Positions 3,906 through 31,440 of a stretch of DNA of 64,000 bases are shown in pieces; the first letter of the stretch is position 1, and each line of letters begins with the position of its first letter. Made by a program: the position numbers and the translations under genes. The notes under the pieces are model-generated. The model was not told the origin of the DNA. It saw nothing but the letters and a program-made list of their open reading frames with translations, and did no database searches. Source of the stretch: Roseococcus sp. SYP-B2431 (lineage in GTDB: Bacteria; Pseudomonadota; Alphaproteobacteria; Acetobacterales; Acetobacteraceae); NCBI RefSeq assembly GCF_004336745.1, contig NZ_SJXD01000022.1, positions 434,001 to 498,000 on the forward strand, given 5' to 3'.

Positions 3906-4044
3906 TCCCCGGAGGGGCGCCTGCCGGGCCCTCATTCCGACGCGGCATCAATCGCGGGGGAGTCGCTTGCATCCCGCGCGGAACTGCGCAGATCATGAAA
4001 CCGGCCCGAGTCGCGGCCGTTACAGGGACCTGCCAGAAAGCCCG

Positions 4045-5121
4045 ATGGTGCCGCTCTCCTCCCCCCATGTCAGCCGCCGGCGCGCTCTGCTCGGCGGGCT
4101 CATGCTGCCCCCCGTCCTCGCCGGCTGCGGCACGTCCGCCATCGCCCAGCGCGGCGCCGCCTTCGATTTCGCCGATGTCGCCGAGCGCGTCCTTCCGGCC
4201 GTGGTCAACATCGCCGTCTCCGGCGAGCAGAGCGTCCAGCCCCCCGCCGAATTCCGCGGCACGCCCTTCGAGCGCTACTTCCGCGGCCGCCGCGAGCGCG
4301 TGCAGGGCGCCGGCTCCGGCTTCGTCATCGATCCGGCGGGCTATGTCGTCACCAACAACCACGTGGTCGGCAATGCCCAGCGCGTGACCATCTCGATCCA
4401 GGGCGGGCAGGAGCTCCAGGCCCGCGTGGTCGGCGGCGACGAACTGGCCGACCTGGCCCTGCTCCGTGTGGAAAGCCGCACCCCGCTGGTCGCCGTCGCC
4501 TGGGGCAGCAGCGCCTCCATGCGGGTCGGCCAGTGGGTGATGGCGGCGGGCAATCCCTTCGGCCTGGGCGGCAGCGTGACCTCGGGCATCCTCTCCGCTC
4601 GCGGCCGCGACATCGGCGCCGGCCCCTTCGACGACTTCCTGCAGACCGACGCGGCCATCAACCCCGGCAATTCGGGTGGCCCGCTCTTCAACCTGGCGGG
4701 CGAGGTCATCGGCATCAACACGGCGATCTACTCGCCCTCCGGCGCCAATGCCGGAATCGGCTTCGCGACCCCCTCCGACCTTGCTCGTCCCGTGATCGAA
4801 ACGTTGCGGCGGGACGGAAAGGTGGAGCGCGGATGGCTTGGCGTTCAGGTTCAGGATCTCGTCGCCGAGGATCCGCGATCGGGCCGCCGCGCGGTGCTCA
4901 TCGCGGGCGTGGAACGCGTGGGGCCCGCGGGCCGCGGCGGTTTGCGCGTGGGTGACGTGGTTCTCGCGATCAACGGCGAACGCACCGAAACCTCCCGCAG
5001 CCTGGTGCGCAGCATCGCCGCGGTGACCCCCGGACAGACCGTCCGCTTGACGGTTCTGCGGGACGGACGCACGCAGGATGTCAGCCTCCAGGTGGGACGC
5101 CGGCCTCCCGGGCCTGGATGA
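4045..5121 (+). CDS. DegP/HtrA-like trypsin-type serine protease lipoprotein with PDZ domain
   Basis: Periplasmic S1C protease of 358 residues. A TTG start at 3967 is possible, but ATG 4045 gives a clean signal with a twin-Arg/hydrophobic region and lipobox VLAGC (Cys28), so the mature protein is probably lipid-anchored. The catalytic triad is intact: H106 in NNHVVG, D136 in LADLALL and S210 in NPGNSGG. One PDZ domain follows (about residues 265-355). Only one PDZ makes it DegS/HtrA-like rather than full DegP. It lies 36 nt ahead of an OmpR-type regulator and sensor kinase on the same strand, a layout typical of envelope-stress control where the protease is a target or modulator of the two-component system. 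Confidence 0.92.
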   Translation: MVPLSSPHVSRRRALLGGLMLPPVLAGCGTSAIAQRGAAFDFADVAERVLPAVVNIAVSGEQSVQPPAEFRGTPFERYFRGRRERVQGAGSGFVIDPAGYVVTNNHVVGNAQRVTISIQGGQELQARVVGGDELADLALLRVESRTPLVAVAWGSSASMRVGQWVMAAGNPFGLGGSVTSGILSARGRDIGAGPFDDFLQTDAAINPGNSGGPLFNLAGEVIGINTAIYSPSGANAGIGFATPSDLARPVIETLRRDGKVERGWLGVQVQDLVAEDPRSGRRAVLIAGVERVGPAGRGGLRVGDVVLAINGERTETSRSLVRSIAAVTPGQTVRLTVLRDGRTQDVSLQVGRRPPGPG

Positions 5122-5157
5122 CAGTTCGGCCGGTCCGGATGGAAGGACCCAAGTGAC

Positions 5158-5841
5158 ATGATGCGCATCCTTCTGGTGGAGGACGACGTCGAGGTCGCCC
5201 GCTTCGTGAAGAAGGGGTTGCAGGAGGCCGGCCATACGGTGGAGCACGCGCCCAACGGGCGGGACGGGCTCTTCCTCGCGGCCTCCGAATCCTTCGACAT
5301 GCTGGTGCTGGACCGGATGCTTCCTGGCGGCGTCGACGGGGTGCGCCTCGTCGAGACGCTGCGGCAGCAGGGCAACCGGACGCCGGTGCTCTTCCTCTCG
5401 GCGCTTTCCGCCGTGGACGAGCGGGTAAAGGGCCTCAAGGCCGGCGGCGACGACTACCTGGTGAAGCCCTTCGCCTTCGCCGAGCTGCTGGCCCGCGTCG
5501 AGGCCCTGGGCCGCCGCCCCTCCTCCGAGGCGCCGGTGACCAAGCTGAAGGTGGCCGACCTGGAGATCGATCTGCTCTCCCGCACGGTCACGCGCGGCGG
5601 CCGCAAGATCGATGTCCAGCCGCGCGAGTTCCGCCTGCTGGAGCATCTGATGCGCCATGCCGGCCAGGTGGTGACGCGCACCATGCTGCTCGAGAAGGTG
5701 TGGGACTACCATTTCGACCCGCAGACCAACGTGATCGACGTGCATGTGAGCCGGCTGCGCCAGAAGCTGGACAAGGGCTTCGAGAAGCCGCTGATCCACA
5801 CGGTGCGCAACGCCGGCTACATGATCCGGGCCGAGGTTTGA
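5158..5841 (+). CDS. OmpR/PhoB-family response regulator
   Basis: DNA-binding response regulator of 227 residues: receiver domain about 1-118 with acidic pocket E8/D9/D10, phosphoacceptor D52 in LVLDRMLPGG and conserved K103 in LVKPFAF; winged-helix effector about 130-225 with VWDYHFDPQTNVIDVHVSRLR, the recognition region of this family. Start ATG 5158, with GGAAGGA 10 nt upstream. It lies between the DegP-like protease and its presumed sensor kinase, from which it is separated by 156 bp containing a dispersed repeat. It probably controls envelope genes including its own operon; targets cannot be read here. Confidence 0.94.
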   Translation: MMRILLVEDDVEVARFVKKGLQEAGHTVEHAPNGRDGLFLAASESFDMLVLDRMLPGGVDGVRLVETLRQQGNRTPVLFLSALSAVDERVKGLKAGGDDYLVKPFAFAELLARVEALGRRPSSEAPVTKLKVADLEIDLLSRTVTRGGRKIDVQPREFRLLEHLMRHAGQVVTRTMLLEKVWDYHFDPQTNVIDVHVSRLRQKLDKGFEKPLIHTVRNAGYMIRAEV

Positions 5842-27490: not shown

Positions 27491-27507
27491 AGTCATAGGA
27501 TCCAGGG

Positions 27508-27516
27508 ATTTGTAAT
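27508..27516 (+). repeat. 9-bp target-site duplication, left copy
   Basis: ATTTGTAAT directly before the left inverted terminus; the identical 9 bp follows the right terminus at 31392-31400. IS1595-family elements usually duplicate 8 bp, so one outer base may be fortuitous. Removing the element and one copy restores a palindrome (CCAGGGATT, TGT, AATCCCTGG). Confidence 0.85.
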
Positions 27517-27541
27517 GGCGATTATGCACTTCCCAAACACG
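27517..27541 (+). repeat. left terminal inverted repeat of the IS1595-family element
   Basis: Reads GGCGATTATGCA, then CTTCC, then CAAACACG; the complement of the right end reads GGCGATTATGCA, TTTGA, CAAACACG. 22 of 25 positions match. Confidence 0.88.
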
Positions 27542-27636
27542 GCGTTCTGAGGGGGTGAAGCCCACTGGTGGTCTGGTGGCTCAGATCGGCTCCGATTCGC
27601 TCAAATTGCCGATTCATTTGAGTCACTTAGAATTTC

Positions 27637-27664
27637 TTGCATAACCTGCTGATTCTGCTATATT
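27637..27664 (+). promoter_or_regulatory. candidate sigma-70 promoter of the cargo methyltransferase
   Basis: TTGCAT at 27637-27642 and TATATT at 27659-27664 with a 16-nt spacer, in an AT-rich stretch. The expected transcription start falls at or beside the ATG at 27671, and there is no Shine-Dalgarno, so the mRNA is probably leaderless. Confidence 0.6.
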
Positions 27665-27670
27665 TTTCTT

Positions 27671-28273
27671 ATGGATGCGACCTATAACCTCAACGGCGGG
27701 CTCAAGCCGACCCTCAAGCGGTTCGCTGACCTCAACGGTCCGGACTTCTTCCCGACGCCAGCATGGGCCACCTATGCCCTGATTGATAACGAGGCGTTTA
27801 AGGGCGAGATTTGGGAAAGCGCCTGCGGCAATGGCGCGATGTCGAAAGTCCTAGAGCAGACCGGGCAGCCGGTGGTCAGCTCGGACTTGTTCGACCGAGG
27901 CTACGGGACGCCTGGACAAGATTTTCTGGCGCCGACGCGGAGCACTGCGAACGTAGTGACCAACCCCCCCTACAACGCGGCAGAGGGGTTCGTGCATGCC
28001 GGCCTGAAATCCGCGCAGAAGAAGGTTGCTTTGCTGCTGCGCCTAGCCTTCCTTGAAGGAGCCAATCGGCAGCGCACGATTTTCACTGATGCGGCGCCTT
28101 CTAGGGTTTGGGTGTTCAGCGAGCGGATCACGTTCTACCCGGCCGGAGCGGTTCAGCAGGGCTCCGGCACCACAGCCTACGCGTGGTTTGTATGGGACAA
28201 GGACGCCCCCGGCAGGACCGAGATGAAGTGGCTCAAACCCGGCTACAAGGCGCGCTATTCGTCTGGCACCTGA
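27671..28273 (+). CDS. small N6-adenine-type DNA methyltransferase (IS cargo)
   Basis: 200 residues. SAM-binding motif I region IWESACGNGAMSKVL (about 47-61), an acidic SSDLFDRG (motif II-like, about 70-77) and catalytic NPPY at 98-101 in the order of phage-type adenine methyltransferases. There is no obvious target-recognition domain and no restriction endonuclease beside it, so it is an orphan, perhaps protecting the element or its excision intermediates. Its 3' end overlaps the convergent 105-residue gene by 19 bp. Confidence 0.8.
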   Translation: MDATYNLNGGLKPTLKRFADLNGPDFFPTPAWATYALIDNEAFKGEIWESACGNGAMSKVLEQTGQPVVSSDLFDRGYGTPGQDFLAPTRSTANVVTNPPYNAAEGFVHAGLKSAQKKVALLLRLAFLEGANRQRTIFTDAAPSRVWVFSERITFYPAGAVQQGSGTTAYAWFVWDKDAPGRTEMKWLKPGYKARYSSGT

Positions 28274-28572
28274 GCCAAGAATGCCCGACCAGCGTCCGTG
28301 ATCGTGATGGTCTCGTTTCCTGGCGAATGGACCGCATAGCCCTTATTAAACATACTGGTGCTCGATGCCTTGTGCGACACGAGGTTCCGCACCTTCTGAC
28401 TGAAATATGTATCGTGCCTGCCGTCCAGGATATCGGCATCCTGCCCGTCAGGGGCGAATTCGTCGGCCAGGACTGCGATCAATTCGGTGGTTGTGATCAT
28501 CCCTCCCGGCCTGGATGCGGCGGCGCGTAAAGCCGGGATGATCAGGTCTCTTTCACGTATTCTGCCGGCCAT
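28255..28572 (-). CDS. small hypothetical protein, probable winged helix (IS cargo)
   Basis: 105 residues with a predicted helix-turn-helix-like pattern: RDLIIPALRAAASRPGGMI, TTTELIAVLADEF, FSQKVRNLVSHK and a beta-hairpin around HSPGNETITITDAGRAFL. The form resembles the N-terminal winged-helix module of Mrr-type proteins, but that is only an impression. AAGGGG precedes ATG 28572 at a good distance. Could be a regulator of the cargo or a DNA-binding partner of the methyltransferase. Confidence 0.65.
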   Translation of the reverse strand: MAGRIRERDLIIPALRAAASRPGGMITTTELIAVLADEFAPDGQDADILDGRHDTYFSQKVRNLVSHKASSTSMFNKGYAVHSPGNETITITDAGRAFLAQVPDE

Positions 28573-28646
28573 GTGACGTTCCCCTTGTTATGAGGGGGCA
28601 CGCTCGCATACCGCAGCCAAACTGTGATCTACGTAGAATCCCGCGG

Positions 28647-28826
28647 CTACTCGCCTTTCTTCGCCTTCGGCTCGCCCTCTGGCTTGTGCCGCGCGATCGC
28701 GGCCAGCTTCTCACGGAACGCGGCTTCGGACTCGTCCGCGCCTAGAGCGCGGGCGGCTTCGGCGAACCGCTCAACTTGAGCTGGCGCCCTGTCGCTTGGC
28801 GAGTGTGTAACCTTTTTTCGAGTCAT
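28647..28826 (-). CDS. 59-residue protein overlapping the AlbA/Schlafen gene (IS cargo)
   Basis: Begins MTRKKVTHSPSDRAPAQ and continues ERFAEAARALGADESEAAF, then REKLAAIARHKPEGEPKAKK, a helical, charged protein with a Lys-rich end. The start region overlaps the last 56 bp of the AlbA_2-type gene in another frame. Codon use is coherent and from memory similar short proteins (EAARxLGxDExE motif) occur widely in alphaproteobacterial plasmids and phages. GCGGAAA precedes the ATG. Function unknown. Confidence 0.6.
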   Translation of the reverse strand: MTRKKVTHSPSDRAPAQVERFAEAARALGADESEAAFREKLAAIARHKPEGEPKAKKGE

Positions 28827-30333
28827 GCTTTTTCCGCCCCGCGGTGGAGATTACCAGAATTCCTCTGTGCACTAGTCCCAGAACGAACTTTTGAGCAGTT
28901 GGCCAAGATCTACCAGTTATGAGGGATGCTGTGGTAATGTTTATATTCGGTGCCACAACCAGGAAGTCCAAAATCTGCTTTTCTTCATCGGACATGGCAT
29001 GATATTCAGTGGCGCTGATGCCGAACATATTTTCGGAAGTATTATCATAGCGTCGAAAGGCGACATTATTTTCCAATACAACGTGAACTTGGTGGATTTG
29101 AGCTTCAATCTGTCTGAACCGAGGCTCCGGCAGCCCAGCTGCGCGCATAGCATTGCGCATACGCCGAGTTCCTTCGAAACCATTGAACGTCAATTCTAGA
29201 TGCATCATCGCTTCCATGAGATATGGATTGCGTGGGTTATGAGCATCGTAAACTGTCTGAGCAGTAGTAGGCGGCACAAAACCACCGGGACTTTCAACTA
29301 CAAAATGATCGTCGAAGATTTTAACAAATATATTCTGAGTTCTTAGGTTATATGACCGATGCGCAACGGCATTCACTATCGCTTCAAACCACACCTCTTC
29401 TGGGTATTCTTGTTGAATAATTAGGCGTCCTGTCGCGTCATAACGCTGGAAAGATCGCATCTGAGATGCGATGACAGATTTTGCATGGAAAAGAATTTTA
29501 GCTATATTCCCATCAACATATTCAGAGAATACACGGTTCAGTTCGGTGCCGAATTTCTCTTCCGTCCCATCGTACTTAATTACTCTTATGCGCGCGCCGG
29601 GGATAATCTCCCTAGGATCATTCCCAAAAAGAAGTGCGCAAGCTAAGTTAGGCTGAAAGATATTATCAACGCGCTTTCCCAGCTTTGCTAGCTCTAGAAT
29701 TTCCGCAATAGATTTTTGCTGTTGAAACTTGCGTGTCGTGCTGAAAATTTTACAAAACTTCTGAACCTCAGGCATATCGAAGTCAGCCGGAAATCGAAGG
29801 CCAACGCCTTCAAGTTCGTGATGAATTTCCCGTTTTGCAATGCGGATTTCTCTCTTTACCACTTCATTTAATTCGCTGCGCTTATCTCCTTCTCTGATGA
29901 AAGCCTTTCCGGCAGTTGTTTCGACAAGTTTGTCAGCATGATATTTCACATAGAATATCAATAAATAATCATTCTCATCGCGGAAGTTTTTGACGGAGAT
30001 TTTCTTTGTTTCGAATTTGGCGTCAGGGCACATAATGCCGCAACTCTCCAAATCATTCAAATGACTTTCCTGACCTTTACAGCCAACGATGCGTCCTTGG
30101 TCGTCAATTCCAACTATAATTAATCCGCCGTGAGGCTGTGTGTTCGACCACATTGACAGATATTCTGCCAGAGACTTCGCTTGTACATTAGTGCTTTTTC
30201 GCTCGACTCTGCGGTCTTCAATGAAATGATGAATATTATCGCTATCGATCTGTTCAAAGATCTGCGCAGAGGTCCACAGCTGGACGAGCCCCGGGGGAGG
30301 CAGCCTCAGGAGAAGGGATAACTGCTCCGCCAT
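28771..30333 (-). CDS. AlbA_2/Schlafen-type putative DNA-binding protein (IS cargo)
   Basis: 520 residues. N-terminal AlbA_2 domain (about 35-160): VERKSTNVQAKSLAEYLSMW, GGLIIVGIDDQGRIVG. The middle and C-terminal parts match RecG-like/ATPase proteins that follow AlbA_2: FEAIVNAVAHRSYN, VESPGGFVPPTTA, HNPRNPYLMEAMMHL, EGTRRMRNAM, then a winged-helix end. Such proteins act as transcription regulators or in phage defence. The coding sequence is notably AT-rich and uses codons unlike the host genes, showing foreign origin. It lies 63 nt downstream of the transposase on the same strand and may be co-transcribed. Confidence 0.8.
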   Translation of the reverse strand: MAEQLSLLLRLPPPGLVQLWTSAQIFEQIDSDNIHHFIEDRRVERKSTNVQAKSLAEYLSMWSNTQPHGGLIIVGIDDQGRIVGCKGQESHLNDLESCGIMCPDAKFETKKISVKNFRDENDYLLIFYVKYHADKLVETTAGKAFIREGDKRSELNEVVKREIRIAKREIHHELEGVGLRFPADFDMPEVQKFCKIFSTTRKFQQQKSIAEILELAKLGKRVDNIFQPNLACALLFGNDPREIIPGARIRVIKYDGTEEKFGTELNRVFSEYVDGNIAKILFHAKSVIASQMRSFQRYDATGRLIIQQEYPEEVWFEAIVNAVAHRSYNLRTQNIFVKIFDDHFVVESPGGFVPPTTAQTVYDAHNPRNPYLMEAMMHLELTFNGFEGTRRMRNAMRAAGLPEPRFRQIEAQIHQVHVVLENNVAFRRYDNTSENMFGISATEYHAMSDEEKQILDFLVVAPNINITTASLITGRSWPTAQKFVLGLVHRGILVISTAGRKKHDSKKGYTLAKRQGASSS

Positions 30334-30396
30334 TTCACTCTCAACTCACTCTAAACCGCCTTTTAGACTGACACTAAAACGCAACGCGAGGCTCAT

Positions 30397-31329
30397 TTAC
30401 GCCGGATAAGCTGACCGGTAGGTCAGGCGCTTCCCAACGATGCCTTTGAGGGCTGTCACGGTGCGCTGCTCATCGTCCATACCCAGCTTCGCGCGGTTGC
30501 TGTAGCGGAAATCGAACTCCGCCACGTAGCGATGAAGGTGCTTCTTGGAGCAGTGCTGGTAGATGCCCTTCATGCCGCGCTTGAAGATGGAGAAAGCGCC
30601 TTCGATCGTGTTGGTGTGGATTGTCGGATTGCTGCGGCTGACGTACTCGCCGGCCGTGTGACGCGTGAACTCATGGCTCGCGAAATGCGCGCCAATGCCG
30701 CGATAGTAGGGCGCCTCATCGGTCATGATGTGCGCCTCGGCCGCGATGTTCGCCTTGAGGATCGCGGCAACGTCCGTCGCCTTAAGGCTGTCCACCACCA
30801 TGGATTGCTTGCGGCCCGTGGTGCGGTCCACCAGGGACAGCACCTTGTGCTTATGACCGACGCCGCGAACCTTCTTGTCGCCATGCGGCTTGATGCTGCG
30901 ATCCGTGCCGATGAACGTCTCGTCCACTTCAACGATGCCGCCGCCAGAACCGAACGGCGCGAGGTCGCCGGAGCGCATCGCCTCGCGAATGCGATGGCTC
31001 ATGAACCAAGCGGTCCGGTACTGCACGTCCAGCACGCGCATGAGCTGGTGGCTGCTGATGCCCTTCTTGCTGGAGCACATCAGGAAAACTGCCTGGAGCC
31101 AAAGGTTCAGCGGCACGTGGCTCGCCTCGAAAACCGTACCCACCGTGACCGTGAATTGGCGCTTGCAGGGCCCGCAGCGATACAGGCCGGCACGACCACC
31201 CTTAACCGCCGTGATGCGCTCCTTGCCAGCGCAGCGCGGGCACACAGGACCAGCCGGCCAAAGGGTCCGCTCAAGCTCCACGCGGGCCGCGTCGGCATCG
31301 TGGAAGTAGGGGGCGGAAAGGACGGACAT
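30397..31329 (-). CDS. IS1595-family (ISXO2-like) transposase
   Basis: 310 residues from ATG 31329, which has AAGGAG 8 nt upstream; the longer frame from 31350 is less likely. N-terminal zinc ribbon CPRC...CGPC (about 26-50), helical domain, and the DDE-type catalytic core: VEVDETFIG, MTDEAPYY and NTIEGAFSIFKRG with the Asn/Glu region. Length and motifs are complete, with no frameshift, so it is probably active. Its 5' end lies 62 bp inside the right terminus. Confidence 0.95.
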   Translation of the reverse strand: MSVLSAPYFHDADAARVELERTLWPAGPVCPRCAGKERITAVKGGRAGLYRCGPCKRQFTVTVGTVFEASHVPLNLWLQAVFLMCSSKKGISSHQLMRVLDVQYRTAWFMSHRIREAMRSGDLAPFGSGGGIVEVDETFIGTDRSIKPHGDKKVRGVGHKHKVLSLVDRTTGRKQSMVVDSLKATDVAAILKANIAAEAHIMTDEAPYYRGIGAHFASHEFTRHTAGEYVSRSNPTIHTNTIEGAFSIFKRGMKGIYQHCSKKHLHRYVAEFDFRYSNRAKLGMDDEQRTVTALKGIVGKRLTYRSAYPA

Positions 31330-31366
31330 GGGGGCTTCTCCTTGCCCCATTCCTATGCGGTCATGG

Positions 31367-31391
31367 CGTGTTTGTCAAATGCATAATCGCC
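31367..31391 (-). repeat. right terminal inverted repeat of the IS1595-family element
   Basis: Complement of the left terminus with 22 of 25 matches; on the plus strand it ends TGCATAATCGCC. Followed immediately by the second 9-bp target duplication at 31392-31400. Confidence 0.88.
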
Positions 31392-31400
31392 ATTTGTAAT
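31392..31400 (+). repeat. 9-bp target-site duplication, right copy
   Basis: ATTTGTAAT, identical to 27508-27516. The following CCCTGG is the complement of the CCAGGG that precedes the left copy, so the insertion split a hairpin-forming palindrome. Confidence 0.85.
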
Positions 31401-31440
31401 CCCTGGTGGGGGAGCGCGAGGGGGCGAAGCCCTCTCGCAT

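Follow-up and report, generated by a model that had tools for sequence, protein, structure and literature searches.

A layered IS1595-family transporter insertion sequence of Roseococcus with a probable accessory protein and a mobile methyltransferase and winged-helix gene pair

Overview

The 64,000-nucleotide window analysed here (all coordinates are positions in it) comes from contig NZ_SJXD01000022.1 of Roseococcus sp. SYP-B2431, and it contains between ureG and an MFS gene an intact IS1595-family transporter insertion sequence (IS) of 3875 bp, 27517-31391. We suggest, with a probability of about 0.58, that this element is built in layers. Its core would consist of the transposase and a 59-residue protein (p59) acting as a transposition accessory or regulator; a first passenger, an AlbA_2/HATPase protein (hereafter AlbA) possibly of defence type, lies between them; and a second, a tail-to-tail pair of a methyltransferase (MT) and a winged-helix protein (wH), lies between p59 and the far terminus. 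MT would methylate GANTC, the site of the host enzyme CcrM, and wH would bind or respond to GANTC sites. Because such sites are clustered in the promoters of both genes, we propose that the pair could regulate itself via the methylation state of the two promoters; expression might be on when the locus has just entered a cell or just been replicated, and be damped later.

The element and its site

The features of the element are as follows.

27508-27516: target-site duplication, left copy ATTTGTAAT
27517-27541, plus strand: terminal inverted repeat distal to the transposase gene, 22 of 25 positions matching the other end
27594-27655, plus strand: MT promoter region, whose four GANTC sites start at 27594, 27611, 27620 and 27651
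27671-28273, plus strand: MT, 200-residue N6-adenine-type DNA methyltransferase with an NPPY motif, phrog_799
28255-28572, minus strand: wH, winged-helix protein of 105 residues with a weak likeness to Mrr_N; the gene overlaps MT by 19 bp at its 3′ end
28647-28826, minus strand: p59, 59-residue small protein recurrent in IS1595 elements
28771-30333, minus strand: AlbA_2/HATPase protein (SLFN_AlbA_2 / HATPase_c_4), 520 residues, passenger between transposase and p59
30397-31350, minus strand: transposase, IS1595-family (ISXO2-like), 317 residues
31367-31391, minus strand: terminal inverted repeat, transposase end
31392-31400: target-site duplication, right copy ATTTGTAAT

The original prediction of an intact IS1595 element with 22/25 termini and a 9-bp duplication is borne out: the transposase matches DDE_Tnp_IS1595 (PF12762, 7.7e-33), the IS1595 zinc ribbon (PF12760, 3.8e-08) and NF033547 (2.9e-56), and all five genes have open frames. 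The range first proposed, 27508-31400, encloses a real element but takes in the duplication, which lies outside the element proper. When the flanks were shuffled 20 times, no pair of termini scored as high as 18/24, as against 25 overlapping pairs at 18/24 in the real flanks. The element is present once in its 4.7-Mb, 31-contig genome, where the terminus pattern (up to three mismatches) occurs solely at its own two ends. Its composition is foreign to the host, as had been claimed for the passenger genes: 54% GC for the element and 45% for the AlbA gene, compared to mostly 67-76% per kb in the surroundings.

The concept of the transporter IS is that of Siguier et al. 2009, as cited in PMC11891212, and the element belongs here since AlbA, MT and wH all sit inside the termini; as these three genes are absent from related elements, they are presumably dispensable for transposition. 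The element resembles other IS1595-family transporter ISs in its transposase domains, its inverted repeats and its passengers unrelated to transposition, and differs from them in the 9-bp duplication, the recurrent p59 and the two separate passenger sets, one of them the MT-wH pair. Known passengers named in the excerpt of PMC11891212 used here include regulators (ISNha5, IS1595 family) and methyltransferases (an IS1380-family element).

Relatives of the transposase were gathered from 195 related genomes (matches in 55 of them) and from a scan of genome contigs (20 loci). The 61 loci given to the delimiting script, window included, represent 60 distinct places (L063 and L077 coincide, and neither was delimited), and 35 elements were delimited by a terminus score of at least 17.5/24, a length below 6 kb and a duplication of 8 or 9 bp. 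Other elements are thus bounded by related termini, as the original prediction required. The delimited elements measure 1.7 to 5.6 kb, of which the transposase gene needs only about 1 kb. The duplication length scored by the script is 8 bp in 28 of the 35 and 9 bp in seven, window included (L111, one of the other six, has doubtful ends); 8 bp is described as usual for the family (PMC8101967, in excerpt).

The flanks (27502-27516 and 31392-31406) read CCAGGG-ATTTGTAAT-CCCTGG when joined, and this joined target, CCAGGGATTTGTAATCCCTGG, is a near-perfect palindrome. Palindromic duplications are seen in some related elements too (AAATATTT in L075, TAAATTTA in L109), which may point to a preference for symmetric targets. 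We considered whether the palindrome is a repeated genomic element and rejected this: GGGATTTGTAATCCC occurs, with up to two mismatches, at four places in the genome, two of which are the element's own flanks.

Comparison with congeners shows the site empty at every informative locus. Of 21 members of the genus, 17 have a ureG match (the window's own included; one weak), and among the 16 other ureG loci compared with both flanks the MFS gene lies beside ureG in seven. The element is absent from all seven, the gap between the two genes there being approximately 15 to 130 bp; the remaining nine loci are uninformative, with no MFS match within the fetched DNA. One of the 20 congeners has a transposase match (G005, 34%), and none has an AlbA relative at E≤1e-20.

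The MT-wH pair

MT has a clear match to phrog_799 in PHROGs (E=5.6e-55), whereas its Pfam match to Dam (0.024) lies below the cut-off, and PF01555 (N6_N4_Mtase), the family looked for as the mark of a CcrM, gives no match at E≤1. The NPPY motif is present in the translation, and MT is 36-41% identical to methyltransferases of alphaproteobacterial phages, including phiLM21_p027 (36% over 85% of MT). The match of wH to Mrr_N is weak and below the Pfam cut-off; its winged-helix fold is supported by an AlphaFold2 model. The first assignments (adenine methyltransferase, winged helix, AlbA_2/RecG-like protein, small protein) therefore agree with the profiles and the fold model, with the reservation that MT and wH fall short of the Pfam thresholds.

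Neither Pfam, PADLOC nor the AlphaFold2 model reveals a nuclease domain in wH, as the nuclease partner of a Type II system should have; the catalytic domain of Mrr, which would mark a type IV enzyme, was not found in its 105 residues, and there is no match to PF07750 (GcrA). Because no nuclease domain was found, MT and wH look more like a methylation module than a restriction system. No DpnI-type chain is among the best 50 fold matches listed for the wH model, which proves nothing. A sequence search of the PDB gave no credible match for wH (best E 0.013, an antitoxin, followed by MHC chains).

The two genes form a separate mobile tail-to-tail pair, found on plasmids, chromosomes, viral contigs and another IS1595 element. 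Outside viral contigs, MT has close relatives (at least 62% identity) at L066, L140-L144 and on plasmids CP039461 (L151) and NC_019315 (L152), and at all eight a small convergent gene abuts or overlaps the MT 3′ end. The window wH as query recognises seven of these genes; the eighth, that of L151, has a Q..RN..SH motif (by eye). The L066 pair is located near a delimited IS1595 element but outside it, about 0.9 kb away. In viral contigs 20 loci have an MT of 63% identity or more, and wH is the neighbour at 16 of them (at L253, one of the four misses, the contig ends at the MT 3′ end) and at none of 60 with more distant MTs. A sample of the class has wH beside MT in six of nine wH matches, and all six MT matches of at least 67% have wH; the genome searches score part of the first-look candidates, so counts of wH, and of p59 below, may be low.

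At L259 the pair occurs with an IS1595 transposase (57%), a p59 matching at 39% over 38 residues, and a single observed terminus, its order relative to the transposase being opposite to that in the window; the contig begins with the start codon of the transposase. At L248 and L250 the transposase is upstream of MT and no termini were found; delimiting both ends failed for all three loci. Beside the L259 element, at 3950-5284, is a frame that by eye resembles a terminase and might belong to a gene transfer agent or prophage. The fetched DNA of the 28 other close-MT loci contains no AlbA relative, one p59 and four IS1595 transposases.

GANTC sites in the promoters

Upstream of 28 MT genes (L242, near-identical to L241, was left out), GANTC occurs 67 times within 150 bp, compared to 15.4 in mononucleotide shuffles. 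This ratio, 4.35, is the highest of 16 gapped palindromes, CTNAG being second at 1.68. The two 50-bp bins before MT hold 37 and 20 sites (2.6 expected per bin), and the two before wH hold 15 and 7 (1.9 expected; 22 loci). Neighbouring sites are spaced by N4 in 11 cases, with all four middle bases occurring. Among the 13 loci where a pair is spaced by N4 or N5, the median ungapped identity over the final 70 bp is 29% (maximum 77%), and such low identity implies that the sites are conserved, not only recently copied. In the window there are four sites before MT, the middle two of which form GANTC-N4-GANTC and the fourth of which is flanked by a -35-like TTGCAT and a -10-like TATATT (by eye), and one before wH; the 150 bp before AlbA, the transposase and p59 contain none.

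It could be argued that these sites merely plug MT and wH into the cell-cycle control of the host by CcrM and GcrA, with MT targeting another site and wH an ordinary regulator. The host has GcrA and a CcrM-type gene (the GcrA profile matched the archaeal control Sulfolobus as well as Caulobacter, and the call rests on a score of 120 bits), and GcrA is reported to bind promoters with methylated GANTC (PMC3667746, in excerpt). On the other hand, the homologous phage enzyme PhiLM21_p027 methylates GANTC (PMC5537653, in excerpt), and distant phage relatives of MT have no upstream enrichment (11 to 13 sites versus about 19 expected at 40 loci under three start placements; 41 of the 60 loci were entered, 40 with enough upstream sequence), so GANTC enrichment is not something that such genes show in general. 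We consider host control alone an unlikely explanation, though one to be taken seriously.

p59 and the transposase

The window p59 has no Pfam match, and across 17 members of the group there are two stray matches, at 0.076 and 0.079. By iterative profile, a p59-like frame is present in 18 of the 35 delimited elements, mostly with differing passengers; the core is about 35 residues, in which F, A, R and F are nearly fixed. On a transposase tree of 32 rows, 17 with p59 (L070, L099 and L101 were left out for their split transposase frames), the p59 label needs three changes compared to a shuffled mean of 11, with none of 500 shuffles as low, and one clade (support 99/97) of 19 rows includes 16 of the 17.

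Searches of genomes for p59 itself give a similar picture. The 195-genome set has 22 p59 places, 13 with an IS1595 transposase nearby (one weak); this set includes the elements used to build the profile, and the class sample is the cleaner test. This sample, of 385 genomes, has 25 places, 19 of them new and found without using the transposase, and in fetched stretches of 4.5 to 16 kb an IS1595 transposase is near 16 of the 19. The geometry is clear in 15 of the 16, p59 lying on the 3′ side of the transposase gene and on its strand, at no more than 163 bp in seven; L214, in which the p59 and transposase pieces are both degenerate and stand in the opposite order, was excluded. As p59 is kept with the transposase and within its clade while passengers turn over, we suggest from these sequence patterns that it is probably part of the IS core, a candidate accessory of transposition that might act as co-factor, inhibitor or regulator. 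The literature search, from whose coverage subscription journals are mostly absent, gave no description of a p59-like IS1595 protein among the papers listed.

L075 has the p59 part fused to a longer protein, and L176 (G034:C105) has three p59-like genes in about 3 kb of a 7.6-kb contig with no IS1595 transposase. Orphan p59 loci were considered as non-autonomous elements with termini of their own and this was rejected, there being no flanking repeat pair at the 13 places tested.

AlbA and the passengers of related elements

AlbA matches PF04326 (2.4e-10) and PF13749 (4.1e-14). Its residues 33-446 also match positions 35-458 of the 1121-position PADLOC pAgo model (4.1e-45), that is, the N-terminal part of the model only; Pfam finds no PIWI family, the domain expected of a pAgo protein, in the 520 residues. 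At E≤1e-20 the 195 relatives contain, besides the window, only G097 (about 35%); the other 34 delimited elements have no relative, and viral contigs yield none in a search reaching close relatives only. From the pAgo match it is plausible that AlbA is of defence type.

Passengers of the other elements were sampled as 49 hand-chosen frames from 31 of the 34 (L085, L101 and L106 were unsampled). Pfam places 21 frames above a cut-off and 28 not, and PADLOC matched one of ten frames tried. Those with a match or annotation include AccI-type nuclease and Eco57I-type methyltransferase frames (L078), a type I-like methyltransferase (L073), an MT-A70 methyltransferase with a divergent wH relative alongside inside the delimited element (L083), PIN (L062, L075, and by annotation the plasmid elements L225 and L227) and HEPN (L088, barely above the cut-off) proteins, an M78 peptidase (L068) and DUF3800 (L067, L069, L084). 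Restriction-type and toxin-type passengers thus recur, and most frames match no named family. A few elements deserve description in their own right. L078 (G037:C14; 5636 bp, 24/24 termini) holds its restriction-modification genes within a single IS. In different bacteria, L062, L075, L225 and L227 share the order transposase, 250-290-residue protein, PIN-domain protein, p59, the passenger of which is a probable toxin-antitoxin system. In L099 (G146:C1) the transposase is interrupted by another frame and a DDE_Tnp_1 transposase is also present, apparently a nested insertion.

The original prediction saw the four genes as a single defence cargo, and by extension one could propose a phage-defence or restriction-type cassette in which AlbA and MT-wH act together and MT protects self DNA. 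The pAgo match and the AccI-type, type I-like, PIN and HEPN passengers of related elements lend this some colour. AlbA, MT, wH and p59 are, however, not one co-inherited set, since each has its own distribution: p59 tracks the transposase, MT-wH is a separate pair, and AlbA relatives are missing from all 28 other close-MT loci as well as from the other delimited elements. Together with the lack of a nuclease domain in wH, this makes the cassette quite improbable. What survives of the defence idea is a plausible role for AlbA and for some passengers of relatives, while MT-wH is more like a self-regulated methylation module. Nor do homologous elements keep the same cargo: passengers are unlike in most of the 35, relatives being common to few only (for example L104/L106). 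That variety would suit a plain IS with p59 and chance hitch-hikers as neutral DNA trapped between its ends, which we regard as very improbable because the p59 core is kept across diverged elements and tracks a transposase clade, and MT-wH with GANTC-bearing promoters recurs in many contexts.

Discussion

Comparison with known methylation systems (the papers cited here were used in excerpt) shows likenesses to and differences from three of them. MT resembles the phage CcrM-mimic methyltransferases (PhiLM21_p027 and kin; PMC5537653) as a small N6-adenine enzyme with NPPY in alphaproteobacterial mobile DNA, at about 36% identity; unlike them, its clade has a convergent winged-helix partner and GANTC-rich promoters and it is borne by an IS, while its activity is a prediction here. 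The pair shares with host CcrM/GcrA (PMC3667746) the promoter GANTC sites and the proposed combination of writer and DNA-binding partner, and differs in that MT is without PF01555, wH is without PF07750 and the genes are tail-to-tail and mobile. With the winged-helix readers of N6-methyladenine and with Mrr (PMC11037411, PMC12707154), wH has the winged helix in common; E. coli Mrr has it at the N-terminus and is triggered by M.HhaII, G6mANTC (same sources). In contrast to Mrr, wH has no nuclease domain that we could find and an Mrr_N match below the Pfam cut-off, and its reading of methylation is putative.

Several observations weigh against our proposal of a layered element with a self-regulating pair. 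The wH fold resembles generic MarR/PadR-type regulators, not a methyl-reader, and three of the nine wH matches of a class sample are in genomes without an MT match (in one, L327, the wH neighbour is not a methyltransferase by eye). The window wH promoter has just one GANTC; of the 28 MT loci, eight have at most one upstream, and five of these (L151, L152, L247, L256, L269) have none. The enrichment could reflect host CcrM/GcrA use alone, and at the identity MT shares with the tested PhiLM21 enzyme its specificity may differ. For p59, 17 of the 35 delimited elements lack it, and no IS1595 transposase is near nine of the 22 places in the 195-genome set (three of them on one 7.6-kb contig and one, G043:C29, cut by a contig end) or near three of the 19 new places in the class sample. 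A bolder version of the proposal, that MT-wH is a self-contained mobile epigenetic switch of GANTC writer and winged-helix reader, with a logic convergent with that of CcrM-GcrA, and is borne by ISs, plasmids and virus-like contigs, and that an IS1595 clade has p59 as an unnamed accessory, is one we put forward tentatively and with the odds somewhat against it.

If the layered element is what we suggest, an IS family has an accessory protein passed over by annotation. ISs, along with other kinds of mobile DNA, would also be spreading a methylation switch of two genes directed at the very site by which alphaproteobacteria time their cell cycle, presumably to the benefit of element or host. Mobile elements would then tap or imitate CcrM/GcrA signalling, and the pair would offer a small natural system for studying methylation control of its own writer. 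Some IS1595 elements are, in addition, minimal carriers of restriction-type and toxin-type genes.

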